A stretch of DNA of 35,988 nucleotides from Candidatus Wolfebacteria bacterium (lineage in GTDB: Bacteria > Patescibacteriota > Minisyncoccia > Phycocordibacterales > NVSU01): the NCBI GenBank assembly GCA_002401345.1, contig NVSU01000003.1, positions 31,520 to 67,507 of the forward strand. The letters are read 5' to 3'. The position numbers and the translations under genes were made by a program. This document shows, one piece after another, positions 7,985 through 29,968 of this stretch (its first letter is position 1; the number at the start of each line of letters is the position of its first letter). A model generated the notes under the pieces. That model had not been told where the DNA came from and did no database searches. It saw only the letters and a list, made by a program, of their open reading frames with translations.

Positions 7985-8754
7985 AATTCGTTTGCACCAT
8001 TCAAGATATCACTAAATGTCTTCCCGTCTAAACTTGCTCGTCCCACCAATAATCCATCCACACCACCTTCTCTCAAAAACATTTTTGCATTTGCCGGTGA
8101 GACTGATCCTCCATAGAGCATCATCATTCCCTCTATTGCAGATGCTCCATACAAATCTGAGAGTGTCTTTTTTATAAACAAAATCATCTCGAGCGACTCT
8201 TCTGGATTCGCACCCCTTGTAGCGTCTTTCCCAATCGCCCAAATAGGCTCGTATGCAATCACAACTTTTTTTATTGCTGATTTAGGAATTCCTGCAAGTG
8301 ATTCTTTAAGTTCTTCTTTTACAAAATTAAGATACAAACTATTCTCATCTCTCACTGTTTCGCCCACACAAAGAATGGGAGTGATATTGTGTTTAAATAC
8401 TGCCTTTACCTTTTTATTTACAATCTCATTAGTCTCTCCAAGTGCCCGTCGTTCTGAATGACCAAGAATTACATACGACACATTATTTTTTGAAAGCATC
8501 AATGGAGAAATTTCTCCCGTGAATGGACCTTTTTCTTCCCAAAACATATTTTGTGCTCCAACGACAACACGATGTCCACCTACTAATTGCTGAAGTGTGT
8601 CTATATAAAGAGATGGAGGACAGACGACAGTTTGAACATTACGAAGCTTTGATCCAGTTTTTTTGATGGCAGAGAAAATTTGCTTCGCCTCACGTGCTGA
8701 CTCCGGATTCATTTTCCAATTTCCTACTATTAATTTTTTATTTGAATCTATCAT
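7981..8754 (-). CDS. tpiA: Triosephosphate isomerase
   Basis: TIM-barrel enzyme of 257 aa interconverting dihydroxyacetone phosphate and glyceraldehyde 3-phosphate. Active-site residues: Lys14 in GNWKMN, His99 in GHSERR, Glu169 in AYEPIWAIG; the phosphate-binding YGGSV is at 214-218. First gene of a tpiA-pgk operon. A 42-codon ORF upstream (8751-8879) starts like tpiA and overlaps this start by 4 bp, so translation of tpiA may depend on reinitiation. The promoter and a leader inverted repeat lie beyond that ORF. Confidence 0.96.
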   Translation of the reverse strand: MIDSNKKLIVGNWKMNPESAREAKQIFSAIKKTGSKLRNVQTVVCPPSLYIDTLQQLVGGHRVVVGAQNMFWEEKGPFTGEISPLMLSKNNVSYVILGHSERRALGETNEIVNKKVKAVFKHNITPILCVGETVRDENSLYLNFVKEELKESLAGIPKSAIKKVVIAYEPIWAIGKDATRGANPEESLEMILFIKKTLSDLYGASAIEGMMMLYGGSVSPANAKMFLREGGVDGLLVGRASLDGKTFSDILNGANEL

Positions 8755-8879
8755 ACTTCATATTCATTTTCTCCCGATAAATAATAATCTCTCAAAAATA
8801 TATTTATCGAGGATCCTCGATCCGCTAAAGCGAGATCGGGACAGTTACCCACTATTAATTTTTTATCGATTTTTTTCAT
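8751..8879 (-). CDS. Leader ORF that copies the tpiA N-terminus
   Basis: A 42-codon frame begins M-K-K-I-D-K-K-L-I-V-G-N, against M-I-D-S-N-K-K-L-I-V-G-N for tpiA. The shared codons differ mainly at third positions (GTG/GTA, GGT/GGA, AAC/AAT), so the copy once evolved as protein-coding sequence. After GN it runs into a GC-rich palindromic patch (perfect 16-bp palindrome at 8807-8822) and ends on a TGA overlapping the tpiA ATG. A promoter with good spacing puts transcription start within a few bases of this ATG. It may be a remnant of an earlier tpiA start displaced by a repeat insertion, possibly now a coupling leader peptide. Compare the ORF before tig. Confidence 0.5.
   Translation of the reverse strand: MKKIDKKLIVGNCPDLALADRGSSINIFLRDYYLSGENEYEV
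8807..8843. repeat. GC-rich palindromic islet before tpiA
   Basis: ATCGAGGATCCTCGAT (8807-8822) is a perfect 16-bp palindrome, followed by CCGCTAAAGCGAGATCGGG. It stands out in base composition and lies inside the tpiA-like leader ORF. Confidence 0.55.
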
Positions 8880-8888
8880 GTTCTTATA

Positions 8889-8917
8889 ATTTTACCCCGT
8901 TAGAGATAAAACGTAAA
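8889..8917 (-). promoter_or_regulatory. Predicted tpiA-pgk promoter
   Basis: Minus strand: -35 TTTACG (8912-8917), 17-bp spacer, -10 TAAAAT (8889-8894). Transcription would begin at about 8882, essentially at the leader ORF ATG (8879). The spacer contains one arm of the leader inverted repeat, so a factor binding it could affect initiation. Confidence 0.5.
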
Positions 8918-8944
8918 CCATACATTCCTTAACTCTAATGGGGT
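8894..8944 (-). promoter_or_regulatory. Leader inverted repeat before tpiA (TTAGAG type)
   Basis: Arms ACCCCATTAGAG and CTCTAACGGGGT enclose a weak inner stem (AATGT/ACGTT). The ACCCC/GGGGT ends match the elements before nusA, comEC and hppA, while the inner part of the arms is the TTAGAGAT variant shared with yraN. Function unknown. Confidence 0.5.
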
Positions 8945-8955
8945 GTATCACAAAA

Positions 8956-8979
8956 AAACCCGCTCATATGAGCGGGTTT
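8956..8979 (-). terminator. Terminator of the surface-protein operon
   Basis: AAACCCGCTC-atat-GAGCGGGTTT, followed on the minus strand by a T run. It lies just after the last gene of the five-gene operon. Confidence 0.85.
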
Positions 8980-8995
8980 ATGAATATATTAAATG

Positions 8996-11086
8996 TTAGT
9001 CACAATCAGTATTAGTTCCCCAACACACACGGACCATTCCGTCTCCGCCATTTCCGCCATTTCCTCCAAATTTAGCATCATCTGAAAATTGTGGAAATGA
9101 GAAACCTGACGGAGAAAAGTCTCCACCACTTCCGCCACCTGCACCTCCTCCAGGAAATGCACCTCGACTTCCATTTACACCATCACCATCTATCACTGCA
9201 GGTCCTCCTGCTAATGCGGTGTTGAAGTAAAACACGTTACCTGCCTTACCACCCCAACCACCTGCCATATAAGCTAATTCATTACCATCATTATTATGAG
9301 AACCCAATGATCCATCTTCTCCATTTTCATTAAAGCCAGACGTGCTTCCTGAAAAACTTCCTCCTAGTCCATTTGATGCAAAGGGATTACTCCCACTTTC
9401 TCTTCGACTAGAAATTCCACCACTACCTCCTGTACCTCCTGTGGCTTCAATAAACACTCCTGACTTACCGAAACTACTTGTTGATCCATTTCCTCCGTTA
9501 CTACCACTACACTTCTCACATCCCCCTATGCCTGCTGTACCCCCTCTACCAACGACTACTTCAAATACGTCTCCATCAGTTACTGAAAATGTCTGAGTAA
9601 CAAAAGCACCTCCTCCACCTCCTCCACCTCCGGCACCATTCCAAGGTGCTACACCACCATCTTCAACACTACCTCCTCCACCTCCTCCACCTCCGGCACC
9701 CCATACTGCAACCTTAAGTGAATTAACACCGAGACTTACAGGTACAATAAAAGATCCTGAGGTTTTGAATGTTTGAGAACCAGTTCCTCGATCTAATACT
9801 GTTATATCTACTGAAGCAACAGCAGTTCCTCCAACACTTGAACATGACAATATAAATGTTGTTGGCGAAGAGGCAAAAAATGGTGCATATGTATTGGTAC
9901 CTGATCGTGGCACGCTTGTTGAATCAGTACCATCAATAAAATCAAATGAGCTAGAAAAACCCATACTAGATACATATTCCTGAATAGAACACGTAGACCC
10001 AATATTTGGATCATTCGAGAACCACTCAAGTGTAACTATGTCTCCAGAAAATATTGTAGATGGACTTGCAGTAATAACTGCCTGCGCAGGGCAAAGCACC
10101 AATCCACCTCCTGATCGAGAACACAGTGGCCATTCTCCTGATACTGTTTGATCGGTTAAGTTTGCAACAACATTTCCTGTTATCCGCGTATCGCCGTACA
10201 CCAATAGAACTGGTTCTTCATCTGGCTCTCCAACAGTCACTCTTACTCTGCTTTTATCTACTCCTGTAAATGTATCTGTAGAAAATGAATATACTATTCC
10301 ATTATTTGATCGTCCTAAACATACTGCACTATATGTAGTTGAAGATGATGGACTCACTGTCTGTGATCCAGAAAGAGAAGTAGTAGCACCAAACCAATCA
10401 AGATTAGTGGGTATGCTGTTTTTATAACAACCAAGCGGAGTATGACCAGATTTTATACCAGGGACAATGGTATCGGTTCTAATAGTCACGTTAGCCCCTT
10501 GTGGAGATGAAACTTCAAAACACAGAAAGTCTTCATCTGCGACACCGCCATGATGAGATTTTGCTGTCAGACAACTGACACCTGGATCAAAATGATTGTC
10601 GAAATTAGTGTCATGATGTCCAACAGTAAAACTAATATCAGTAGTCTCTCCAAAAGCAATAGTATCATCAGACGCAGTAATTTCTACAAATGCATTCCCA
10701 CTAACCTCATTTCTATTAAGCGCTGCTACTGCTCTTTGTGCTTTAAACACATTTGCCAATGGTTTTAAAACATTTTTGAGTGCAAATCTATTGTCTGAGA
10801 TTTCTTGGGCAGTTTGAAAACCACCTAGACCAGCTTCTGTTCCAATGGTCGTCTTCGCTAAAAACAGTGAGTTGTCTTCTGTTAAGAGTGCATCAACAGC
10901 AAGTGCTGAAGACTTCAGTTGTGGATCAACGTGTGTATTTACTGGAGCTGGAATATTCGAACTTGGCGGTGAAGAAAATGGATCATTCCATACTCCTGCA
11001 TATGACACACTTGATAGCATAAAGGCACTGAGTACAAGCACCTTCAATGCATTTTTTATATTCTGTTTTTTATTATTATTTTTCAT
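8996..11086 (-). CDS. Large secreted glycine-rich surface protein
   Basis: 696 aa with a signal peptide (hydrophobic core about 13-28, ending VSYA). Residues 31-70 form a module shared with the next two genes (W-x-D-P, then PAPVN, DPQLKSSALAVDALL). A central region (about 110-440) looks beta-rich; about 340-435 resembles the Ig-like repeats of the 489-aa protein (ASPSTIFSGDIVTLEWFS with paired Cys). The C-terminal part (about 455-690) is glycine-rich, with three runs of Gly, and ends MVRVCWG. Last and largest gene of the operon. Localisation at the cell surface or outside is inferred. No enzymatic motif is visible. Confidence 0.8.
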   Translation of the reverse strand: MKNNNKKQNIKNALKVLVLSAFMLSSVSYAGVWNDPFSSPPSSNIPAPVNTHVDPQLKSSALAVDALLTEDNSLFLAKTTIGTEAGLGGFQTAQEISDNRFALKNVLKPLANVFKAQRAVAALNRNEVSGNAFVEITASDDTIAFGETTDISFTVGHHDTNFDNHFDPGVSCLTAKSHHGGVADEDFLCFEVSSPQGANVTIRTDTIVPGIKSGHTPLGCYKNSIPTNLDWFGATTSLSGSQTVSPSSSTTYSAVCLGRSNNGIVYSFSTDTFTGVDKSRVRVTVGEPDEEPVLLVYGDTRITGNVVANLTDQTVSGEWPLCSRSGGGLVLCPAQAVITASPSTIFSGDIVTLEWFSNDPNIGSTCSIQEYVSSMGFSSSFDFIDGTDSTSVPRSGTNTYAPFFASSPTTFILSCSSVGGTAVASVDITVLDRGTGSQTFKTSGSFIVPVSLGVNSLKVAVWGAGGGGGGGGSVEDGGVAPWNGAGGGGGGGGAFVTQTFSVTDGDVFEVVVGRGGTAGIGGCEKCSGSNGGNGSTSSFGKSGVFIEATGGTGGSGGISSRRESGSNPFASNGLGGSFSGSTSGFNENGEDGSLGSHNNDGNELAYMAGGWGGKAGNVFYFNTALAGGPAVIDGDGVNGSRGAFPGGGAGGGSGGDFSPSGFSFPQFSDDAKFGGNGGNGGDGMVRVCWGTNTDCD

Positions 11087-11100
11087 ACTATATTTTTAAA

Positions 11101-12258
11101 TTATGGAGCGATCCATGACACTACTACTCTTCCTGGATTACCAGAAGATCCATTAACTATACTTGTGCCTCCATTGCCCCCTCGGCCTAGTGTAGGATTT
11201 CCTAAATCACCTCCATCTCCACCAAAACCTCTACCAGAAATTATTGGATGAGATCCGGTAGCAAAAAAAGTTTCTCCAGTCGTACCTCCACTTCCACTTC
11301 CATTAGATACATTTCCATATGTGGCTGCCCCACCTGCACCACCACCAAAAGGTACTTCAAGTAATCTATTTAAAATCGAATCAAAGAGAGCGAACTCTGC
11401 CCCTTCACCACCTCCCGCACGAGCAATTATTGTTCCATTTATAGATCCGTCGATGGATCCATCGGTCGAGGCAAATATACTGTCTCCTCCATCACCTCCT
11501 TCTCTATTAGCTATAGGAGTTAATATTCCACCTGTCCCAGGAGCCCCTGGCACCACTTCAAATACATCAAAAGGAGTTACGCTTAGTTGTGATTTTGAAT
11601 ATGCTCCTCCTCCACCTCCGCCACCAGCACCACTTATGTTCGTACCTCCCTCTGGATATTGAAGATTGGCTACTCCTCGTCCACCACCACCACCAGCACC
11701 CCACACTTCAATCACAAGAGAGTTTACTTGTGCTGGAACCACAAAACTATTATTAGTACATGATGAACAATCCCCACTGTGCGTTCCAGGAATAAATATT
11801 TCAGTACTAAAAGTGAGACTACCTGGATTAAATTGCCGTGTGCACGTGATCAATTCATGAGTATTCATATCGAGACATAGAGACTGACGCTGAGAACTCG
11901 ACGTTGGCTGAAGCGAGTCAATAAGCACTACACCATTACTCACCTTTATTCCCTTTATATGATTTCCTCCAGATATATAATCGAATATATTTAATGCTTC
12001 AACTCCTGGAATAAGAGTCTCTCCAACAGACACAGTTCCCGATGTAGATGCAATTTGAGATCCACCCGTAACAAGCAATCCATCCAATCCAAGATCACCT
12101 GATTTAATTTGTGGAGTCGATCCTTCATTTATCGGAATAACAGCATTATCGTTAGTAGAAGTTCCTTGTGGGGCACTCCATGCAGCGTAGGAAATACCAC
12201 CCACCATAATAAAACCGAGGAATAATATTTTTATTGATGTTTGTAATGTTTTATTCAT
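11101..12258 (-). CDS. Secreted glycine-rich protein, shorter relative of its neighbour
   Basis: 385 aa. Signal peptide about 8-25 (IKILFLGFIMVGGISYA), then the shared module (AVIPINEGSTPQIKSGDLGLDGLLVTGGSQI, about 39-69), a Cys pair motif (LCLDMNTHELITC, about 127-139), and a glycine-rich C-terminal domain (about 185-380) ending GRVVVSWIAP. The C-terminal closing motif parallels MVRVCWG in the next gene. It lies 14 bp upstream of the 696-aa gene and 17 bp after the 140-aa gene, so it is cotranscribed. Probably an exported structural or adhesive protein; no catalytic motif seen. Confidence 0.78.
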   Translation of the reverse strand: MNKTLQTSIKILFLGFIMVGGISYAAWSAPQGTSTNDNAVIPINEGSTPQIKSGDLGLDGLLVTGGSQIASTSGTVSVGETLIPGVEALNIFDYISGGNHIKGIKVSNGVVLIDSLQPTSSSQRQSLCLDMNTHELITCTRQFNPGSLTFSTEIFIPGTHSGDCSSCTNNSFVVPAQVNSLVIEVWGAGGGGGRGVANLQYPEGGTNISGAGGGGGGGAYSKSQLSVTPFDVFEVVPGAPGTGGILTPIANREGGDGGDSIFASTDGSIDGSINGTIIARAGGGEGAEFALFDSILNRLLEVPFGGGAGGAATYGNVSNGSGSGGTTGETFFATGSHPIISGRGFGGDGGDLGNPTLGRGGNGGTSIVNGSSGNPGRVVVSWIAP

Positions 12259-12275
12259 ATATATCTATTTAAAAA

Positions 12276-12698
12276 TTAACATGAGACAAGTTCTCCATTA
12301 TCAACACATACTGGTTGTGATTGATTCTCTGTGTGTGAAAGTGAGTCAATTGAAAGTACACTTGTCACAGTATTGCCAAATACAGTAAGAGCATTATTGA
12401 GACCATTTACAGTTGAGCCGATTGAACTTAAAGACTGAGGTTGTCCAAATGTTGTATTTCCATTAATTTGAGTCTCCCCAAAGACAGAAATACCATCCAA
12501 TGCAAGTCCTGCACTTTTTATTTGATCTACTGTTCCTACATTAATAGGTGTGTCGATATTTTGATCAGGAGGACTTCCGGGTGCTGCATCCCAAGGATTA
12601 TTAGAACTAGGTGTATGTGCCTGAGCAAAGCTAATTACCACACTCAAGATAAGTGCAATCATAACTATTTTTGTAAGTTCTATTGTTCGCTGTTTCAT
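12276..12698 (-). CDS. Small secreted protein carrying only the shared surface module
   Basis: 140 aa if started at the ATG at 12698 (MKQRTIELTKIVMIALIL); an upstream in-frame ATG at 12755 would overlap the preceding gene and place 19 extra residues before the signal peptide, so I reject it. After the signal peptide (cleavage about AQA-HT) it has WDAAPGSPPDQNIDTPIN, then DQIKSAGLALDGISVFG, and ends with a Cys pair (VCVDNGELVSC). It is thus the N-terminal module of its two downstream neighbours without a glycine-rich tail, and may be a minimal subunit of the same surface structure. Confidence 0.75.
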   Translation of the reverse strand: MKQRTIELTKIVMIALILSVVISFAQAHTPSSNNPWDAAPGSPPDQNIDTPINVGTVDQIKSAGLALDGISVFGETQINGNTTFGQPQSLSSIGSTVNGLNNALTVFGNTVTSVLSIDSLSHTENQSQPVCVDNGELVSC

Positions 12699-12711
12699 AA
12701 CTATGTATATA

Positions 12712-14181
12712 TTAAAATTCTTCAAAAATCGGAATTCCTGCTCCAGACGGCTCAATTCCCCCTACAGATATTCCAACCGTATCGCCTACTGTCTGACCTG
12801 CATTATTTGTACATTCAATTGTAAAGTTAGTAGGTTGAGTCACCCCTATGGATGCTGTTCCTATTTGTGGTGAGGGAACTACAGAGTTCCACGCAACATG
12901 AGATGGCACAGAACTTGTACTACAACTATTCACATTGTTGGGAAGCCACGTTAAATTAGCTGTTCCACCTCCAATCGGTAAACTCGTAGTGTCAGACACA
13001 AGAGTAACAGATGGTCGAGCTGGTGCCTGCTGAGTCACTGTCACCGTAGCTGGGAATTGAAGATTTGTACAATTAATACTAAATGAGGTTTGAGGGAACG
13101 GCACTGACACATTTGATTGAGGCGATGCATTAAATAAATTAGTACCCATTGTAGATGTATCAATCGATCCAATCCATCCTATGCCCCCTCCCCCTCTTTG
13201 ACATGTTCCAAGTGCACTTGGGTCAGGTGACCACCAGAAAAGATTTGTTACAAATGGTGCAGGAAGTAGTGCAGTAGATGGATTTGCGATGAGGAAAAGC
13301 GTCGCAGGAATCATCACATCTGCAACTCGAACCTCTACACTATCACTTATTGCTAATCCATCATCACCAGTACACGTAAGTGTATATGTAGTGGTTTGAG
13401 AAAGTGAAACTGATTCACCAACTAGATCTATTTCAGATCTTGAGCCTGTCCAGCTACCATCTGTACTGCTCGCAGTACAACTTCCTACTTGAATATCTCG
13501 TGACATCCATGTTAAGAGTGAAGTGCCCCCACTAGATGGAAGTGTGAGGGGGTTAGCAACTAAATTTAAACTTGAACCCAATGGAACTGAAATGGATACA
13601 TCTACAAGATCAATCCACCCCACCACATCAGATCCCCATGCAAACCCAACGAGCTTGCGGTTTATCTTGTCATATGTGACTCCTCCATTTCCTGAAAGAT
13701 CTGGTGAGCTATGATTTGTTCCTGAAAGCTGAATACATCCATCCCAGTCTCCAGACCTTAATGCATCAGGTTCATCACCTGAAAGTGCTCGTATCCACCC
13801 ACTAACTTCTCCTGTGGATGCATCTATATTCGCCCCGACTCCGGATGGACAGCTTGCAACATCATTTTCATTAAAACTTATCCATCCAATATTAGAAGAC
13901 CATGCATATCCCGAAAGATCCCCCGATGAATTAACAACAGACACATTATATGTAGAACCACTAAAACTTATCCACCCAATAGTGTCTGACCACGCCCACC
14001 CTGAACCACCAGTTTCACCTGGTGAAAGCTGTTGAGTCAGTTGATTTTGTTGTTGTTGCAATGGCAAATGAGATGTCGCTCGGGCTGATTGAGTGAAGGA
14101 ACCTGAAAGTACTGCTGCAATTCCAACAACAAATAGTGCAATACCAACATATATCAAATTTTTTTTTCGAGTGGTGAACAT
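12712..14181 (-). CDS. Surface protein with WS/GWI repeats and Ig-like domains
   Basis: 489 aa. Membrane or signal segment about 8-30. Residues 60-192 contain repeats of the type G-x-A-W-S-x-x-I-G-W-I-S-F (61-73, 91-103, and a degenerate one at 179-191). Three Ig-like modules follow at about 205-286, 294-383 and 390-473, each with a tryptophan and a Cys pair (235/270, 327/371, 420/457) that could form disulfides outside the cell. No anchor is visible at the C-terminus. Similar W-S/G-W-I proteins are, to my knowledge, frequent in Parcubacteria and uncharacterised. Second gene of the operon, 5 bp after the first. Confidence 0.8.
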   Translation of the reverse strand: MFTTRKKNLIYVGIALFVVGIAAVLSGSFTQSARATSHLPLQQQQNQLTQQLSPGETGGSGWAWSDTIGWISFSGSTYNVSVVNSSGDLSGYAWSSNIGWISFNENDVASCPSGVGANIDASTGEVSGWIRALSGDEPDALRSGDWDGCIQLSGTNHSSPDLSGNGGVTYDKINRKLVGFAWGSDVVGWIDLVDVSISVPLGSSLNLVANPLTLPSSGGTSLLTWMSRDIQVGSCTASSTDGSWTGSRSEIDLVGESVSLSQTTTYTLTCTGDDGLAISDSVEVRVADVMIPATLFLIANPSTALLPAPFVTNLFWWSPDPSALGTCQRGGGGIGWIGSIDTSTMGTNLFNASPQSNVSVPFPQTSFSINCTNLQFPATVTVTQQAPARPSVTLVSDTTSLPIGGGTANLTWLPNNVNSCSTSSVPSHVAWNSVVPSPQIGTASIGVTQPTNFTIECTNNAGQTVGDTVGISVGGIEPSGAGIPIFEEF

Positions 14182-14186
14182 TATTT

Positions 14187-14492
14187 CTATAGTGAATTAA
14201 GAATGTCTAATTTTTCTTCTTCAGTAAGACCTTGTTCATTGTTTAATGAATTTAGATTGGATAAATTTTCTAATATATTTTTTTGCTCTTCTTCAGAAAA
14301 CCTAGATTCATCAGAAGCATCTGAAAGATCATCCAATATCTCAAACTTTTGTTCTTCCGTTAATTCCGGAGCTTTTAATCTATTGTAAAAAAAATACGAA
14401 GCAATTATCGCAAGAATTATTAGAGTAACAACTAAGTACAACGTTGTATGTTTCTTTGGGCTAATATGTAGTGGTGATTTCTCTTGATTCAT
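14187..14492 (-). CDS. Membrane-anchored protein with three EEEK-type repeats
   Basis: 101 aa from the ATG at 14492; the in-frame ATG at 14543 would add a Tyr/Phe-rich stretch unlike an N-terminus. Cytoplasmic N-terminus, one membrane helix (YLVVTLIILAIIASYFF, about 18-35), then three repeats of a 13-residue motif: LTEEQKFEILDDL, FSEEEQKNILENL and LTEEEKLDILNSL. These acidic helices could bind a partner or one another. First gene of the five-gene surface operon, which suggests a role in export or assembly; this is inference from position only. Confidence 0.7.
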   Translation of the reverse strand: MNQEKSPLHISPKKHTTLYLVVTLIILAIIASYFFYNRLKAPELTEEQKFEILDDLSDASDESRFSEEEQKNILENLSNLNSLNNEQGLTEEEKLDILNSL

Positions 14493-14695
14493 ATGAAATA
14501 GAAAAAATTTATACGTGTACCCGTAATCACAACCAAGGAGCAAAATAAAAACGTGAGTGCCCTTTATTCGAGTGACGCGATTATATACTTTGTATATATT
14601 TTAACACTTCGTGTGCATTCACACCAATATACATACGTCTTTTTGTGGATAAATAAGCGCAACTGAAGATGAAATTATTTTTCACCGCCAGATTG

Positions 14696-14772
14696 ATCCA
14701 GTAGTGAAATTTTGCAAAGTAAATATGAAGAATGGATCAACATTGATATATTTTAAAATTCTACTACTGGAT
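14696..14772. repeat. Inverted repeat overlapping the nusA promoter
   Basis: ATCCAGTAGTGAAATTTT (14696-14713) and AAAATTCTACTACTGGAT (14755-14772) are complementary except at two positions. The right arm touches the -35 box of the nusA promoter. Further upstream, 14544-14695 has no gene; it holds the promoter region of the divergent surface operon and a single TGTGGATAA at 14645-14653. Confidence 0.5.
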
Positions 14773-14800
14773 TGACATTTACAACAAATTGGCATAAAAT
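14772..14800 (+). promoter_or_regulatory. Strong nusA promoter
   Basis: Consensus -35 TTGACA (14772-14777), exactly 17 bp, then -10 TAAAAT (14795-14800). The start would be near 14807, leaving a leader of about 275 nt before nusA. Confidence 0.75.
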
Positions 14801-14811
14801 GAATTCACGAA

Positions 14812-14839
14812 AGTCCGTTATGAAACGGGCTCTTTTTAT
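14812..14839 (+). terminator. Terminator-like hairpin at the start of the nusA leader
   Basis: AGTCCGTT-atga-AACGGGCT followed by CTTTTTATT, only a few bases after the predicted start. No plus-strand gene lies upstream, so it cannot be a normal gene terminator. Attenuation of nusA, perhaps by NusA itself, is a reasonable guess. NusA feedback control of its own operon is known in other bacteria. Confidence 0.5.
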
Positions 14840-14875
14840 TAAGAAAACAAGGAATAAAGTGACTATGCTTTTCTT

Positions 14876-14960
14876 AACCCTGTTAAATCTTTTGCCTTAG
14901 CAAAAGATCTTATACAAACAAAGTTTAGATTTTATTTGTATAAGATATTTGACTAGGGTT
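14876..14960 (+). promoter_or_regulatory. Three-way-junction leader element 1 before nusA
   Basis: Arms AACCCTGTTAAAT (14876-14888) and ATTTGACTAGGGTT (14947-14960) enclose two perfect hairpins that abut without spare bases: CTTTTGC-ctta-GCAAAAG (14889-14906) and a 12-bp stem ATCTTATACAAA/TTTGTATAAGAT (14907-14946). It is the first of two tandem elements of the same design. Confidence 0.65.
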
Positions 14961-14972
14961 GATTATGAAGAT

Positions 14973-15045
14973 CACCCCAGTGAAATATCTTGCTAAATGC
15001 AATTTAACAAGACGATCTACCGGACGTAGATCATTTCACAGGGTG
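14973..15045 (+). promoter_or_regulatory. Three-way-junction leader element 2 before nusA
   Basis: Arms CACCCCAGTGAAAT (14973-14986) and ATTTCACAGGGTG (15033-15045). Inner hairpins: TCTTG-c-TAAAT-gca-ATTTA-a-CAAGA, and GATCTAC-cggac-GTAGATC. The 3' arm ends 38 nt before the nusA ATG, the same distance as at hppA. Confidence 0.65.
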
Positions 15046-15083
15046 ATGATTTAAATAGTCGTTTCACTTCTTTAAAATCAATC

Positions 15084-16547
15084 ATGTTAGATCTAAAAAC
15101 AATGAAATCAGCGCTTCAACAACTCGAAGAGGAGCGAAAAATACCTAAGGAAAAAATAATCGAAGCAATCGAGCAAGCCCTTGCAGCAGCCTACAAAAAA
15201 GATTATGGAAAGAAAGGACAAATTATTCGTGCTCACTTCGACATGGACTCAGGAAAAACTGAATTTTCACAAATTAAAATAGTTGTAGATGATTCACTTG
15301 TAAGAATAGTTGAAGAAGGAGATGAAGAAGAGGAAGAGGAAGTGGTTGAAGAAGGAGATGAGAGAGTACGATTCAATCCAGAACATCACATTCTTATAGA
15401 AGATGCCCAAAAAATTAAAAAAGGTGTAGAACTCGAGGAAGAAATTATATTCCCTCTTGAAGCACAGGATGATTACGGACGAATTGCCGCCCAAACTGCA
15501 AAACAAGTTATCATTCAACGTATCCGAGAAGCAGAACGAGGTTCTATTCTTGATGAGTATGGAGACAAAGAAGGAGAAATCGTAAATGGAATCGTTCAAA
15601 AAATTGATCGAGGTAATGTATTTATCGATTTTAACAGAGCAACTGGTGTACTTCCCTCATCTGAGCAGATTCCTGGAGAGAGATATCATCAGGGAGGTAG
15701 AATTCGAGCATATCTATATCAAGTAGAAGAATCGCCACGAGGAATTAACTTACGACTATCGCGAACTCATCCTAAGTTAATTGAAAAATTATTTGAGATC
15801 GAAGCACCAGAAGTTGCAGGTGGTGTGGTTGAAATAAAAAGCATTGCACGTGAACCTGGTAATCGATCAAAAATTGCTGTTATGTCTCATGATGAAAACA
15901 TTGATCCAGTAGGATCTCTTGTGGGACAACGTGGAATACGTGTCACAACAGTTATGAATGAACTCAATGGTGAGAAAATTGATATTATTGAATGGGATGA
16001 AGATCCAGCAAAGTTCGTTGCTGCCGCACTGTCTCCTGCTAAAGTATTGGATATTGAAATAGACGAGGAAGAGAAAAAAGCAACAATTGAAGTTGTAGAT
16101 GACCAACTTTCTCTTGCAATTGGAAAAGGAGGACAAAACGTTCGGCTTGCAGCAAAACTTACTGGATGGAAAATCGATATTCAAGGAATGGAAGGTGAAA
16201 AAGATGAATCTACTGATGAAGATAAAGAGAATCAGCCAGCTGGCGGAGATGAATCAGAAACAGAAACTGCTAAAGAAGAAAATCCACCAGCAGACGTAGA
16301 AGAAAAGAGTACATCAGCGAATCCGCCAGCTGGAGGAGTGGAAAAAGATTCAGACAACAAGGAGAATCCGTCAGCTGACGAAGAGGAAACAAAAGATGAC
16401 GACCCGCTTCGCCAAAGCTCCAGCGAGGCGAGCAAAGAGAATCAGCCAGCTGGCGAAGAGGAAAAGGAATCATCTCCTGAAGAAGAACCTAAAGATCCTA
16501 AAGGAAGCTCGCCCGATGCTTCTGAGGAAGCGTCTAGGGAAAAATAA
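15084..16547 (+). CDS. nusA: Transcription termination/antitermination factor NusA with repeat-built acidic tail
   Basis: RNA polymerase-binding factor controlling pausing, termination and antitermination. N-terminal domain about 1-130 with an extra acidic run (EEGDEEEEEEVVEEGDE, 77-93); S1 domain about 163-228 (VNGIVQKIDRGNVFIDF); KH1 about 260-320 (VGSLVGQRGIRV); KH2 about 328-368 (LAIGKGGQNVRLAAKLTGW). The tail (370-487) is highly acidic and holds five copies of an ENQPAGGDE-like repeat (ENQPAGGDE, ENPPADVEE, ANPPAGGVE, ENPSADEEE, ENQPAGEEE), three of them encoded by the GCCAGCTGGC palindrome, plus DPLRQSSSEAS from a second GC-rich element. It has no acidic repeat of the E. coli type; the tail looks made by repeated insertion of palindromes. 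Long structured leader. Confidence 0.95.
   Translation: MLDLKTMKSALQQLEEERKIPKEKIIEAIEQALAAAYKKDYGKKGQIIRAHFDMDSGKTEFSQIKIVVDDSLVRIVEEGDEEEEEEVVEEGDERVRFNPEHHILIEDAQKIKKGVELEEEIIFPLEAQDDYGRIAAQTAKQVIIQRIREAERGSILDEYGDKEGEIVNGIVQKIDRGNVFIDFNRATGVLPSSEQIPGERYHQGGRIRAYLYQVEESPRGINLRLSRTHPKLIEKLFEIEAPEVAGGVVEIKSIAREPGNRSKIAVMSHDENIDPVGSLVGQRGIRVTTVMNELNGEKIDIIEWDEDPAKFVAAALSPAKVLDIEIDEEEKKATIEVVDDQLSLAIGKGGQNVRLAAKLTGWKIDIQGMEGEKDESTDEDKENQPAGGDESETETAKEENPPADVEEKSTSANPPAGGVEKDSDNKENPSADEEETKDDDPLRQSSSEASKENQPAGEEEKESSPEEEPKDPKGSSPDASEEASREK
16230..16463. repeat. Cluster of GC-rich palindromes inside the nusA tail
   Basis: Copies of (A/C)GCCAGCTGGCG lie at about 16234, 16323 and 16443, and two decayed ones at about 16282 and 16368 (CCGTCAGCTGACG), each preceded by GA(A/G)AATC. 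A second element, CCCGCTTCGCC..CAGCGAGGCGAG (16403-16432), matches in 26 of 30 bases the reverse complement of the patch before tig (about 20970-21000). All are read in frame as P-A-G-G or R-Q-S type residues. Confidence 0.75.
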
Positions 16548-16564
16548 ACTACTCAGTACAATAA

Positions 16565-16595
16565 AAAACACCCATCACATGTGATGGGTGTTTTT
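16565..16595 (+). terminator. nusA terminator
   Basis: AAAACACCCATCAC-atgt-GATGGGTGTTTTT, 18 nt after the nusA stop, with a T run. Confidence 0.85.
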
Positions 16596-16620
16596 ACTTA
16601 GACGTCCGACGTCTAAGTAA
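16594..16620. repeat. Palindrome ACTTAGACGT-ccg-ACGTCTAAGT, copy 1
   Basis: A perfect inverted repeat directly after the nusA terminator. Its 23-bp core recurs exactly at 17878-17900. Confidence 0.7.
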
Positions 16621-16647
16621 ATGATGATTTTTTTACAGTGCATAAAA

Positions 16648-16672
16648 AAAGCATCCGATTAACGGATGCTTT
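16648..16672 (-). terminator. Terminator of the 179-aa secreted protein gene
   Basis: AAAAGCATCCG-ttaat-CGGATGCTTTTTTT on the minus strand, starting at the stop codon of the upstream gene. The T-run side continues into GTGCATAAAAAAAGC-type sequence that recurs at 17294. Confidence 0.8.
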
Positions 16673-17211
16673 TACTTATACATTTCTGGACGTGCCAAAA
16701 GAAGTGATACGCCAAGCCCCAAAATAGGCTGAGTCGCATTTTGAAAGATATTTACCTCAGCCATAATGCCGATGTGCGACTCCTTGTGTCTATATTCAAT
16801 TATGTATGCATGATGGTATCCATATGCGATTGCAAAATCATATCTGAGACTAAAGGGAACATTTAATAAATAATTGCCATCAATTCTAAAAAATATACCT
16901 GCCCCTCCAAACTCTTTTACCGAAAATCTATATGAGGAACGATTCAAACTTAGAATCTTGGTTTCAGAATGAAAGCTTATACTCAATCCTGCAATTAACC
17001 ATTGTTCTCCTATTCCTCCGGAGATTTTTGTATAAAACCACGTATCATAACCTTTCTTGAAAGGACTAATTTTTTCTGAACCTACACTTAATGACATATA
17101 ACGGTGCATGAATGTGTGTTCATTAGACACTGTGTCTTCACGAGCTTGAGCCACAACTAGAGATTTGGAAAGTAAAAAAATAGCAACGAGAGAAAATTTA
17201 AAATTTCTCAT
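16672..17211 (-). CDS. Secreted beta-rich protein, outer-membrane-barrel-like
   Basis: 179 aa with a clear signal peptide (MRNFKFSLVAIFLLSKSLVVAQA). The mature part alternates polar and hydrophobic residues in many short strands rich in Tyr, Phe and Gly (YRFSVKEFGGAGIFFRI; SLRYDFAIAYGYHHAYI; ILGLGVSLLLARPEMYK), as in small beta-barrel proteins. That would be odd for a CPR cell, which is thought to lack an outer membrane; a secreted beta-sandwich is an alternative. No family recognised. Monocistronic with its own terminator. Confidence 0.65.
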   Translation of the reverse strand: MRNFKFSLVAIFLLSKSLVVAQAREDTVSNEHTFMHRYMSLSVGSEKISPFKKGYDTWFYTKISGGIGEQWLIAGLSISFHSETKILSLNRSSYRFSVKEFGGAGIFFRIDGNYLLNVPFSLRYDFAIAYGYHHAYIIEYRHKESHIGIMAEVNIFQNATQPILGLGVSLLLARPEMYK

Positions 17212-17305
17212 GATATGTTGTGTTTTGAGTTGACAAAATAAGATCTGAATTAATTCTACAAACAGAATAGCTTTTTGTCAAATATTATTTACGGTGCATA
17301 AAAAA

Positions 17306-27163: not shown

Positions 27164-27360
27164 TGTGCGGGTGGGGAGAATCGGTCACGAATTACTAATT
27201 CTCCGCCAGCTGGCGGATCATAAGTATTCTCGACCCCGACTCGCTGTTGCTTCGCAACATAGCTCCGTCTTTCGATTCCCCACGTACACAAAGAAGCTTG
27301 TGTACTCCTACCCAACACATAAATGAAAATCACCCGGCAAACGCCGAGTGATTTTCATTT
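27164..27360 (-). repeat. tRNA-Gly-end repeat unit R1 with terminator-like hairpin
   Basis: Positions 27164-27183 repeat exactly the last 20 nt of the tRNA-Gly(TCC) region (27546-27565). On the minus strand, GTGGGGAATCG (27273-27283, reversed) can pair with CGATTCTCCCCAC near 27171-27183, closing a structured stretch that includes GTTGC-gaa-GCAAC and the GCCAGCTGGC palindrome (27202-27217). About 60 nt (27181-27238) match unit R3 near the other tRNA-Gly gene with four differences, all C/T on the plus strand. A terminator-like hairpin (27321-27359, AAATGAAAATCAC/GTGATTTTCATTT) bounds it. It may be a mobile palindromic element targeting tRNA-Gly, or a small structured RNA. Confidence 0.65.
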
Positions 27361-27541
27361 TGTGCGGGTGGGGAGACGCTTCGCTATCTCACTCCTTGGA
27401 AACCCACGGTTTTCCAACGGACTACGTCCTGCCTTCCTCCACAGGGAAACTAAAGTTTCCCCGACCCCCTTCCTGTTCGATTCTCACAATCTCGCAACAG
27501 TAGCAAAAATAAAACACTGCATTAATGCAGTGTTTTATTTT
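27361..27541 (-). repeat. tRNA-Gly-end repeat unit R2 with terminator-like hairpin
   Basis: 27361-27375 repeats the last 15 nt of the tRNA-Gly(TCC) region. Between it and the tRNA lie inverted pieces (GTTTCC/GGAAAC, GGAAACC/GGTTTTCC), an inverted T-loop copy (GTTCGATTCTC at 27475-27485), and the hairpin AAAACACTGCATTAATGCAGTGTTTT (27509-27537), which is probably the true tRNA-Gly terminator. No protein frame here is convincing. Confidence 0.55.
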
Positions 27542-27547
27542 ACTATG

Positions 27548-27618
27548 TGCGGGTGGGGAGAATCGAACTCCCGTCCTCTGCTTGGAAGGCAGATATTCTA
27601 CCACTAAACTACACCCGC
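27548..27618 (-). tRNA. tRNA-Gly (anticodon TCC)
   Basis: 71 nt. Acceptor GCGGGTG/CACCCGC with discriminator A; anticodon loop CTTCCAA in stem TCTGC/GCAGA; T arm GGGAG-TTCGATT-CTCCC. No encoded CCA, in line with the CCA-adding enzyme at 30853. Partial copies of its 3' end lie downstream at 27361 and 27164. Confidence 0.95.
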
Positions 27619-27662
27619 AATATTTCTTATTCTACTATTAATAATGTCAAAATCAGCCTCTT

Positions 27663-27735
27663 TCGGGACACTGGGATTCGAACCCAGAATCGCTCGCTCC
27701 CAAAGCGAGTATGTTAGCCGTTACACCATGTCCCG
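27663..27735 (-). tRNA. tRNA-Pro (anticodon TGG)
   Basis: 73 nt. Acceptor CGGGACA/TGTCCCG; anticodon loop TTTGGGA in stem CTCGC/GCGAG; T arm CTGGG-TTCGAAT-CCCAG. No encoded CCA. It lies 44 nt upstream of tRNA-Gly(TCC) on the same strand, so the two are probably one transcript. Confidence 0.95.
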
Positions 27736-27794
27736 TATAAAAAATACTTTATCATCGTAGCATACTTAGTCGAAAAAACAATTATCCATTAAAA

Positions 27795-27823
27795 AAACCC
27801 GCTCATATAAAATGAACGGGTTT
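27795..27823 (-). terminator. Terminator of the cold-shock operon
   Basis: AAACCCG-TTCAT-ttta-ATGAGCGGGTTTTTTT on the minus strand (one mismatch in the stem), just after the 132-aa gene. Confidence 0.75.
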
Positions 27824-27841
27824 GTGTTGATCTAAATCTGA

Positions 27842-28240
27842 TCATTGATAACACAATTCTTCTGAACTACCAAAACCAGGATCCACAGTGATAGAGAAAC
27901 CTTCGTCTCCAAAAAATTCCTGTGACACGACTTCTCTTTCGGGCACAGTAGAGATTTCTCTTATATCCCCTTTTCCGGTCATATCAATCCACTTTCTGAC
28001 GATGCTTTCATAGGTTACAATAGTGTGATCATAAACCTCACCTGTCTCCATATGATTCGCTTGACTGGCCTGACTTGTAAAAGGTGCAGGATTAAAATCA
28101 CCGGATCCTACTAAATCAGAGAGTTCTTCTGCGAGCCTATGGTAAGAGGAATTTGATTCCTCATTCCCGGTAATTTCATAGATAAGCTCATGAACTTTTT
28201 CATCAACGATAACAGGGTCCCCCATCAGATCAATCTTCAT
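27842..28240 (-). CDS. Unknown acidic protein coupled to the cold-shock gene
   Basis: 132 aa, no membrane segment or signal peptide, clearly acidic (many Glu/Asp; ends FGSSEELCYQ). No family recognised. Its start overlaps the end of the cold-shock protein gene by 11 nt, so translation is likely coupled and the two products may act together. It could be a partner or regulator of the RNA-binding protein; this is inferred from gene order alone. Confidence 0.65.
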   Translation of the reverse strand: MKIDLMGDPVIVDEKVHELIYEITGNEESNSSYHRLAEELSDLVGSGDFNPAPFTSQASQANHMETGEVYDHTIVTYESIVRKWIDMTGKGDIREISTVPEREVVSQEFFGDEGFSITVDPGFGSSEELCYQ

Positions 28241-28493
28241 AAATCATTTGCGGCTTTGGATCGGCTTCTGGTGTAACGACAGCATCCTTTCTCATTACTT
28301 GAACAGCCTTTCCGCCTTTATTGTTTTCCTCAACATTGAACTTTAGTTCGTCTCCCTTTTTCAACTGAGGAAACTTAACCATAATAAGATTAGAAAGGTG
28401 AAAGAAAATGTTATCCTTCGCACCTTTACGCTCAATAAATCCATATCCATTTTCATGTAATGTAGCGATGGTACCTGTCTCTGAATGTTTCAT
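28230..28493 (-). CDS. Cold-shock-domain protein
   Basis: 87 aa. The cold-shock domain covers about 5-68: TGTIATLHENGYGFIER with an RNP1-like motif (GYGFIE) and NIFFHLS as RNP2-like. These bind single-stranded RNA or DNA and melt secondary structure. A short C-terminal extension (VTPEADPKPQMIYED) follows. It begins MKHSETGTIATL, which lacks the usual K-W-F-N, so it is a divergent member. Operon with the overlapping 132-aa gene. Confidence 0.88.
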   Translation of the reverse strand: MKHSETGTIATLHENGYGFIERKGAKDNIFFHLSNLIMVKFPQLKKGDELKFNVEENNKGGKAVQVMRKDAVVTPEADPKPQMIYED

Positions 28494-28626
28494 GTCAAAT
28501 AAGTTTTAGTTAGTATAGATTTTTTAATTTACGTTATAGGAAGTTGGAGATAAAATCTCCGATTCCTTCTGGTTCTACATTATCATAATATTGACTGATT
28601 GTCAAGTATATTGTGGAAGCAAAACT

Positions 28627-29031
28627 CTATATTATAAGATTTTCTATACTTTTAACCTTTGCTTTCTTATTTTTCACATCCAGAAACACCAAAAGTGCAT
28701 CAACTTGCCACTCCACCCTATCCATTACATTTTTCTCCAGCAAATAAGATTGTATTGTTCTCGCCATACGTCCCAGTTTATGTGCATCAATCTTCTCCTC
28801 GGGTCTAAATTCTTCATTATTAACAACACTAACATCACTTAGATCAGTAGACTTGGTTTTTACCTCAATAAAATGAAGAACGTTTGATTTACTTGCAATA
28901 ATATCAATTTCTCCCCATTTTTTGGTGAAATTACGTTCAATTACACTATATTTATGTTTCACGAGAAACCTACACGCCAAATCTTCGCCAATTTCTCCTA
29001 TTTTCTGTGTTTTTGAGCTAAATTTCTTCAT
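28627..29031 (-). CDS. YraN/UPF0102-family nuclease-fold protein
   Basis: 134 aa. Residues 11-60 carry the family signature: IGEIGEDLACRFLVKHKY, then ERNFTKKWGEIDIIA and HFIEVKTKS, with Glu41, Asp43, Glu56 and Lys58 in the arrangement of the restriction-endonuclease-like fold. The family resembles archaeal Holliday-junction resolvases; its role in bacteria is not settled. The start ATG directly follows one arm of a 14-bp perfect inverted repeat (29030-29043). Single gene. Confidence 0.9.
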   Translation of the reverse strand: MKKFSSKTQKIGEIGEDLACRFLVKHKYSVIERNFTKKWGEIDIIASKSNVLHFIEVKTKSTDLSDVSVVNNEEFRPEEKIDAHKLGRMARTIQSYLLEKNVMDRVEWQVDALLVFLDVKNKKAKVKSIENLII

Positions 29032-29154
29032 CCCGTTAGAGATAGGAAATCAATGATTTCCGTAAATTACTATTATATATCATATAAAAAAATAAATTAT
29101 ACACTGATTTAACAGTATAATGGCTAAACATAACGTTGTGATCTCTAACGGGAT
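29030..29154 (-). promoter_or_regulatory. Leader inverted repeat abutting the yraN start
   Basis: ATCCCGTTAGAGAT and ATCTCTAACGGGAT are 14-bp perfect arms about 97 nt apart; the downstream arm runs into the ATG itself. A hairpin GGAAATC-att-GATTTCC lies inside next to the 3' arm, and ATTATAC/GTATAAT pairing with a TATAAT box further in. The CCCGTTAGAG arm matches the tpiA leader. Melting or binding of this repeat could control yraN initiation. Confidence 0.6.
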
Positions 29155-29616
29155 TCATATTACCTATAATTATACAATATTCTCAAGTAACATAGAAATT
29201 ACATAGATATACCTAATGTTACCCATGAAACACAAATATATGTTTCACGTGATACATTCTTCTGCGTTTCATGGGTAACATATATCACTTATTCAATAGA
29301 AAACAATGTAATATTTCCCTTCGGTATTTATTAGACTCAAAATGTGTTTTATTATTGGGTGTCTCAGAATAAAGCCTTATTTTTCAACGTTTATTTGATA
29401 TTTTGTATGTATATTCAGACACTGACTTATATATAAAATGTCCTTATTTATGTCTTTTATAAACAGTATCAACATGTTTATCCACACTATATTCTCTATA
29501 GAATATACAGAATATAGTGAAATATATCTCTAAGGGACATGTATTTCATGATGTCCTTTATACATACGTTTTCTACCTGTACTACATAGCTCAGATATTT
29601 TATCGGAGCAAAGTAG
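29155..29616. other. Noncoding AT-rich stretch with clustered inverted repeats
   Basis: No convincing gene on either strand. It holds ATGTTACCCATGAAAC (29216-29231), repeated inverted and perfectly at 29266-29281, with the near-palindrome TGTTTCACGTGATACA between; GTGTCT/AGACAC arms about 60 nt apart; ACTATATTC/GAATATAGT; and GGACAT/ATGTCC. A single DnaA-box-like TTATCCACA lies at 29478-29486. It might be a control region, a decayed element or a structured RNA. Confidence 0.45.
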
Positions 29617-29857
29617 TGCGGATACCAGCCTCGACTAGACGACGAGTCTAGGCGGGGGGAGATTGGTCACGAATTACTAACTCTCCGCCAGTTGGCGGAT
29701 CATAAGTATTCTCGACCTCGGCTCACTATCTCGCTTCACTTGATATAGTTGCGCCTTTCAATTCTCCACATAAGTAAAGCAGTTTACTTATTCTTATTCG
29801 AGACATAAATGAAAATTACCCAGCTATCGCTGGGTAATTTTCATTTTGTGCGGACCG
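29617..29857 (-). repeat. tRNA-Gly-end repeat unit R3 with terminator-like hairpin
   Basis: Counterpart of R1, next to tRNA-Gly(GCC). Short copies of the tRNA 3' end (GTGCGGATA at 29617, TGTGCGGA at 29847) frame a block (29663-29720) that matches R1 in 54 of 58 bases, with the palindrome at 29684-29699. The closing stem is GTGGAGAATTG against CCAATCTCC here, instead of ATCG/CGAT in R1, so pairing is kept while sequence changes in step with the local T loop (TTCAATT against TTCGATT). The hairpin at 29807-29846 matches the one at 27321 in design. Confidence 0.65.
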
Positions 29858-29897
29858 CTTGAAGCGAGTCTCGCACATCTGTTTTTTATTATGTTTG

Positions 29898-29968
29898 TGC
29901 GGATAGGGAGAATTGAACTCCCGTCTCATCCTTGGCAAGGACGTATTCTACCACTTAACTATATCCGC
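29898..29968 (-). tRNA. tRNA-Gly (anticodon GCC)
   Basis: 71 nt. Acceptor GCGGATA/TATCCGC with discriminator A; anticodon loop TTGCCAA; T arm GGGAG-TTCAATT-CTCCC. No encoded CCA. Partial copies of both its ends flank it on each side. Confidence 0.95.

Follow-up and report, generated by a model that had tools for sequence, protein, structure and literature searches.

The window analysed here, 35,988 nucleotides (nt) from a Candidatus Wolfebacteria bacterium with a 0.9-Mb genome (G000), carries short repeated units next to two genes for glycine transfer RNA (tRNA). We propose that these units probably belong to a family of non-autonomous integrative elements, each with a folded attachment site resembling the attC sites of integrons and acted on by a recombinase supplied in trans. 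Members of the family have a defined insertion point, a displaced copy of the target 3' end, an arm that tracks the target and a core whose three-way junction covaries with no preference for wobble pairs, and they occur in tandem arrays. We think it fairly likely that the family is an undescribed and very common form of tiny mobile DNA in Patescibacteria, residing at the 3' ends of tRNA genes; the literature, which was searched incompletely, yielded no description of it.

The initial annotation had pointed to two blocks, at 27181-27238 and 29663-29720, and direct comparison shows 54 of 58 bases to be identical; the next-best ungapped match of the 58-nt block in the whole window, on both strands, is of 34 bases. 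The block itself is an imperfect palindrome (query 9-61 against its own inverse, 78%). As had also been reported, tRNA-Gly genes lie 5' of both blocks on the minus strand, tRNA-Gly(tcc) at 27547-27618 (locus 1) and tRNA-Gly(gcc) at 29897-29968 (locus 2), both found with ARAGORN and with Rfam RF00005, and the sequence of the closing stem changes with that of the local T arm: on the minus strand the stem reads AATCG/CGATT at locus 1, where the T loop is TTCGATT, and AATTG/CAAT at locus 2, where the T loop is TTCAATT. A covariance model built from 20 homologs (R1) matches 27172-27282 with 105.9 bits and 29654-29768 with 78.0 bits, far above chance. The repeat therefore exists, but the 58 nt first described are part of a longer unit that comprises a core of about 90 nt, a guide arm, a hairpin, a terminator and a copy of the tRNA 3' half. 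Read along the minus strand, the tRNA 3' half is followed by a palindromic terminator, a partial inverted copy of the acceptor, an optional hairpin (H1) and then the arm, which is complementary to the T loop and T stem; the core comes next, closes with GTGACC and is followed by the tRNA 3' half once more, again as a direct copy. In typical units a linker may stand in place of the terminator between the tRNA 3' half and the arm, and the usual length is 125-270 bp.

Insertion point and target-tracking arm

The position of insertion is evident from orthologous sites that are empty in one genome and filled in another. The tRNA-Phe gene of G105, a genome of 752,630 bp in a single contig (72 kb masked), is empty and runs into ATATAAAAAATCAGCC; in G252 it is followed by a different terminator, an inverted arm and a core, and only then by the slightly altered original 3' half with the flank of the G105 type. 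Corresponding pairs are found for tRNA-Lys(ctt), empty in G105 and filled in G027, and for tRNA-Leu(gag), empty in G386 and filled in G448, and at all three filled sites the original 3' end and flank sit beyond the core. These comparisons place the insertion in the T loop after C56, between C56 and G57, and indicate that the 3' half of the gene is now that of the unit. The tRNA-Leu(gag) unit is minimal, at about 125 bp and with no terminator hairpin; the empty orthologous sites have simple terminators. Over 77 loci, the direct copy has an identity to the tRNA of 0.86-1.0 between G57 and the 3' end of the gene; past that end the value drops to 0.48 and lower, and to the left of the copy the core has GACC where the tRNA has TTC. 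Copies occur in tandem arrays and turn over between relatives. Movement of whole units is evident from an exact tandem unit in G488 and from two genes of G105, tRNA-Arg(gcg) and tRNA-Arg(tct), whose units are almost identical in sequence all the way from T loop to core.

The suggestion that the element copies the T arm of its neighbour proved right in effect. Among 129 elements, the complementary run between guide arm and local T arm has a mean of 7.26 nt, compared with 4.36 nt for permuted partners (maximum 4.72 in 500 permutations), and for the direct copy the corresponding means are 9.9 and 4.36. Of the positions that distinguish the tRNA from the displaced copy, the arm agrees with the tRNA at 100 and with the displaced copy at 8; pairing between the two stem strands is therefore not what maintains them in place.

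Targets are not confined to tRNA genes. Within the array at locus 1 lies element B (27361-27487, minus strand), which represents a second, unrelated core family of the same design, with similar sequences in 25 of 60 relatives and with sites at the 3' ends of tRNA, transfer-messenger RNA (tmRNA), rpsI (uS9) and rpmG (bL33) genes. At rpsI of G010, the arm agrees with the upstream gene end at 12 of 13 positions and with the displaced end at 5 of 13, and the displaced end encodes the same tail, P-H-W-S-K-R-stop, by other codons. The rpsI gene of G016, a member of another family, has the upstream end seen in G010 and a displaced end of its own, and in G093, which belongs to the family of G010 and is empty, the end codons are nearer to the displaced end of G010. 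Taken together, the three genomes favor a unit that would bring its own gene end together with a matching arm, and local copying at the tRNA copies would be compatible. Among 188 unique elements over the loci examined, 131 are situated no more than 100 nt downstream of a tRNA or tmRNA gene, of 40 kinds. Copies away from tRNAs, proposed at the outset as a refutation, do exist in part, in that the sister family is also found at rpsI and rpmG, and its arm at rpsI of G010 carries rpsI sequence. The rule is that the arm matches the 3' end of the target gene rather than a tRNA as such.

A proposed folded site and competing explanations

In the mechanism that we envisage, a unit inserts site-specifically into a tRNA or tmRNA gene, between C56 and G57 of its T loop, pushes the original 3' half downstream and supplies a replacement, so that the gene stays intact. 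The core, a conserved forked hairpin, lies by the join, preceded by the arm complementary to the 3' half that was brought in. In the free unit, whether circular or single-stranded, the end of the core would abut the unit's own tRNA half; one strand could then fold such that the arm and the tRNA half form a duplex T-arm site like that of the intact gene, with helices P2 and P3 as the fork. The recombination partner of this folded site would be the T arm of a tRNA gene, with the recombinase provided in trans. A duplex of this kind would account for the need of each arm to match the target of its unit, whatever that target is. The mobile form would accordingly be a folded single strand of DNA, the units would circulate as free DNA, and the enzyme may be a tyrosine recombinase such as the host Xer. 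More tentatively, the family could be a phylum-wide, tRNA-based counterpart of the integron, in which folded single strands exchange, the arm spells the 3' end of the target, and the recombinase comes from the host or from other mobile elements; attachment specificity would then be set by the arm and not by a fixed sequence.

It is also conceivable, although we consider it rather unlikely, that the core alone moves and that each insertion produces two copies of the local tRNA 3' half, one direct and one inverted. The synthesis, by fold-back or primed by the target, would start where the T loop is cut and would reverse direction at the terminator palindrome. Such copying would account for a direct copy that stops exactly at the tRNA 3' end, for young units in which T loop, terminator and arm form one long palindrome (as at the tmRNA locus of G105), and for near-identical cores in one genome that are accompanied by different arms and unrelated linkers. 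It is harder to reconcile with the rpsI genes of G010 and G016, where the upstream end and the arm agree, the upstream end is common to two host families and the displaced ends are host-specific alleles. The whole unit common to two tRNA-Arg genes, the minimal tRNA-Leu(gag) unit with no terminator palindrome and the lack of any correlated reverse transcriptase also argue against it.

Whether the core folds as DNA or RNA bears on a further alternative, which we regard as improbable: a structured non-coding RNA whose role would be to pair with the neighboring tRNA, to sense it or to process it. Covariation at the three-way junction is strong (102 cells changed on both sides; shuffles give 35 and slid structures no more than 29), there are conserved non-canonical positions, and the arm is complementary to a T arm in the same transcription unit, all of which would suit such an RNA. 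However, isolated mismatches in the P2 and P3 helices comprise 23 G-T and 25 A-C pairs, whereas tRNA stems at the same loci, treated by the same procedure, have 141 and 7; this control uses stems only, as whole arms probably count loop positions such as C32/A38 as pairs. The result is unchanged with stricter flanks, and an apparent G-T preference in P3 was traced to a single conserved G-T position. A wobble bias is expected of helices that are kept as RNA and not of helices that fold as DNA or are copied from arm to arm, and the sequences thus favor a core hairpin that would act at the DNA level. The earlier proposal of an RNA that must match the tRNA is unsupported on this count, and also because the arm sides with the tRNA over the displaced copy. 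Further points against an RNA are the position of the element behind a strong palindromic terminator, the tandem arrays with their turnover between relatives, and the same behavior of the sister family at a protein gene, rpsI. Only tRNAs reach the gathering score of an Rfam family in the window, where all other matches are weak and below threshold; a ribozyme, a group I or II intron, a retron and a tmRNA-like RNA were rejected for want of an Rfam match, a wobble preference and a reverse-transcriptase correlation. Still less probable is an immobile terminator or tRNA-maturation module maintained by the host: terminators are nearly always included, about half of the tRNA genes of G105 have a unit and some units are common to orthologous tRNAs, but R1 finds no copy in 63 of the 297 genomes of the order, a simple terminator suffices at orthologous sites that are empty, the terminator is missing from some units, and arrays and displaced copies are signatures of insertion.

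Several observations weigh against the integrative units that we prefer. No free form was seen, and a search of viral contigs with one exact pattern found no copy. Both tRNA-Glu copies in G105 have arms that match the tRNA 3' terminus and trailer instead of the T arm. Units at different tRNAs of one genome often combine a near-identical core with unrelated linkers and different arms, which a pure cassette model does not predict and which requires core exchange or gene conversion; the tRNA-Ala units of G105 and G027, for example, are orthologous except for a swapped top of P3, so one of these processes would act on top of insertion. Finally, no recombinase gene tracks the family: for Y1 transposases, tyrosine and large serine recombinases, and reverse transcriptases, there are element-rich genomes that lack them or element-free genomes that have them.

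Among the candidate enzymes, Y1 transposases (PF01797) have no match in the element-rich genomes G113, G161, G142, G222 and G010, and mobilization of the IS200/605 or RAYT type was rejected because Y1 is absent from many element-rich genomes. No reverse transcriptase was found in element-rich G105, G113, G161 and G205. Nearly all genomes, with or without elements, have about one tyrosine recombinase, presumably the housekeeping Xer, a distribution that speaks neither for nor against this enzyme as the agent. A large serine recombinase was rejected as the mover; it does not track the family, and an island in G530 that encodes one seems to have its own junction. This 9-kb island (L208, G530:C1:400000-419999, positions 8172-17299) lies at a tRNA-Glu gene with its far end abutting a family unit, and it encodes the recombinase, whose end overlaps the tRNA in antisense, an N6 DNA methylase and a DUF2779 protein. 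Gene-cassette cargo was likewise discarded: the blocks of 1-4 kb between tRNA and core in G448, G170 and G105 have short repeats of the tRNA 3' terminus at their joins and resemble islands in their own right. At the tRNA-Gln(ctg) array of G448 (L205, G448:C12, 6900-12100), the blocks between units encode a DUF4145 protein, an HNH endonuclease and a hydrolase-like protein; in the sister genome G386 a unit directly follows tRNA-Gln(ctg).

Distribution and relation to known systems

The source genome contains five copies of the family. With locus 1 as the query, four full-length sites are found there, beside two tRNA-Gly genes, a tRNA-Cys gene and a tRNA-Leu gene, and there are weaker matches in 28 of 60 relatives. 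R1 is positive in 234 of the 297 genomes of the order, where in many the number of matches counted means at least that many, and in 49 of 380 genomes across the phylum, other classes included. An exact core pattern compared with the GTDB genomes gave 114 stretches, nearly all from Patescibacteria, Paceibacterota, Parcubacteria, Yonathbacteria, Kaiserbacteria, Nomurabacteria and similar groups or from untitled bins; one is titled Cytophagales and lies on a 3.5-kb contig that may be misbinned.

G105 has 20 copies for 36 predicted tRNAs. Thirteen are located no more than 100 nt downstream of a tRNA, another three belong to arrays as additional members and one stands after the tmRNA gene; the remaining three adjoin degenerate, distant or unrecognized tRNA-like ends. 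At about 714.3-714.6 kb of G105:C1 there is an unrecognized sequence starting with AATGTCCTTACGGGGC that has a tRNA-Gln-like 3' half at its end and a unit directly after it; a similar start occurs in L033, and the sequence is perhaps a degenerate or intron-bearing tRNA or the end of an island. A broken tRNA-Ser(gct), a unit and an intact tRNA-Ser(gct) stand in succession in two congeneric species (G105:C1:129763-129900 and L047), and the unit seems to have accompanied the duplication of the tRNA.

An integron attC is a site used as a folded strand: the box where recombination takes place is paired with another box upstream of it, and certain unpaired bases are conserved. The attC boxes read RYYYAAC and GTTRRRY. 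The units resemble such a site in their predicted folded strand with complementary outer boxes, whose three-way junction covaries with no wobble preference, and in conserved unpaired bases; as in integrons, they form arrays, and the sites are homogeneous within a genome. They lack the RYYYAAC and GTTRRRY boxes, however, and have a junction of the type GTGACC|GATTC that varies with the tRNA: the target is the T arm, and the paired box changes with it. As a rule they also carry no gene cargo, unlike integron cassettes, and the genes that intervene look like separate islands with their own att repeats. In the attP of the CTX phage, single-stranded DNA folds into a forked hairpin and thereby restores a duplex site for recombination; it is directed to dif and is served by no recombinase of its own. 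A predicted forked hairpin that would recreate a duplex site and the lack of a recombinase link the units to this and other Xer-exploiting elements, but they target the T arms of many tRNA genes instead of dif and have no phage genes. REP/BIME, RUP and BOX elements and miniature inverted-repeat transposable elements (MITEs) are short, non-coding, palindromic, present in many copies and presumably moved in trans. The units share all of these features, and differ in their strict choice of target, replacement of the target 3' end, target-matched arm and absence of a correlation with Y1 transposases.

Genomic islands in tRNA and tmRNA genes (tDNA islands; Islander, PMC4383910) insert at a T-loop or T-stem sublocation, regenerate the 3' end of the gene, leave the displaced fragment at their far end and form tandem arrays. 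The units similarly split a tRNA or tmRNA gene and regenerate its 3' part (as at the tRNA-Phe, tRNA-Lys and tRNA-Leu sites), have the displaced fragment at their far end with a sharp boundary (77 loci) and form arrays. In contrast to such islands, they measure 125-270 bp rather than kilobases, have no integrase gene and in most cases no room for one, reach about 20 per small genome, and possess a conserved forked hairpin with a target-complementary arm.

If our reading is true, in hundreds of small Patescibacteria genomes a large share of the tRNA genes harbor unannotated integrative elements, and the 3' ends of Patescibacteria tRNAs are partly supplied by mobile DNA. Its attachment sites, with one arm that varies along with the target across some 40 kinds of tRNA or tmRNA, would also form a natural series, making the acquisition and change of specificity in folded-strand recombination sites directly testable. 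The family would further explain fragments derived from tRNAs and tRNA-like ends in tandem, which may be wrongly annotated as genes or pseudogenes.

The two loci in the window

All features at both loci lie on the minus strand. At locus 1, the T loop and 3' half of tRNA-Gly(tcc) occupy 27548-27567, and a palindromic terminator (27506-27541) stands between the tRNA and element B. The guide arm of element B, GTGAGAATCGAA (27476-27487), is complementary to the tRNA-Gly T loop and leads into its core (27377-27475), which is followed by a copy of the tRNA-Gly 3' end (27361-27376, an exact repeat of 27546-27561) that opens the next unit. This unit, A, has a palindromic terminator (27321-27360) with a near copy at locus 2, a partial inverted copy of the tRNA-Gly acceptor strand (27307-27317) and, inserted between the inverted acceptor and T-arm parts, the H1 hairpin (27282-27306), found in the same place in many relatives. 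Its guide arm, GGGGAATCGAA (27271-27281), is complementary to the T arm of tRNA-Gly(tcc), in keeping with the permutation test. The core (27183-27270; R1, 105.9 bits) consists of the P2 and P3 helices of the three-way junction and ends in GTGACC, and the displaced copy of the tRNA-Gly 3' half, GATTCTCCCCACCCGCACA (27164-27182), repeats 27546-27564 exactly.

At locus 2, downstream of tRNA-Gly(gcc), GCGGTCCGCACA (29847-29858) may be the remnant of a decayed earlier unit. The second unit proper comprises a palindromic terminator (29807-29846), an H1 hairpin (29772-29789), a guide arm, GGAGAATTGAA (29757-29767), that matches the tRNA-Gly(gcc) T loop TTCAATTCTCC, a core (29665-29756; R1, 78.0 bits) and a degenerate displaced copy of the tRNA-Gly 3' half (29651-29664).

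A G+C-rich palindrome, TCCGCCAGCTGGCGGA, is present in the P3 loop of all four full-length copies of the source genome (27206-27220 and 29688-29702 in the window). Palindromes resembling it also seem to occur in coding regions of the window (around 4272-4301, and in the open reading frame 15084-16547), where they would encode peptides of the PPAGG type in the manner of an in-frame palindromic insert. Separately, a motif, CCCGTTAGAGAT, and its inverse, ATCTCTAACGGGAT, stand in inverted orientation around a gene start, at about 29030-29046 and 29138-29156; a similar motif is found near gene starts in G105 (at about 738 kb), and it is perhaps a repeated promoter or leader element.

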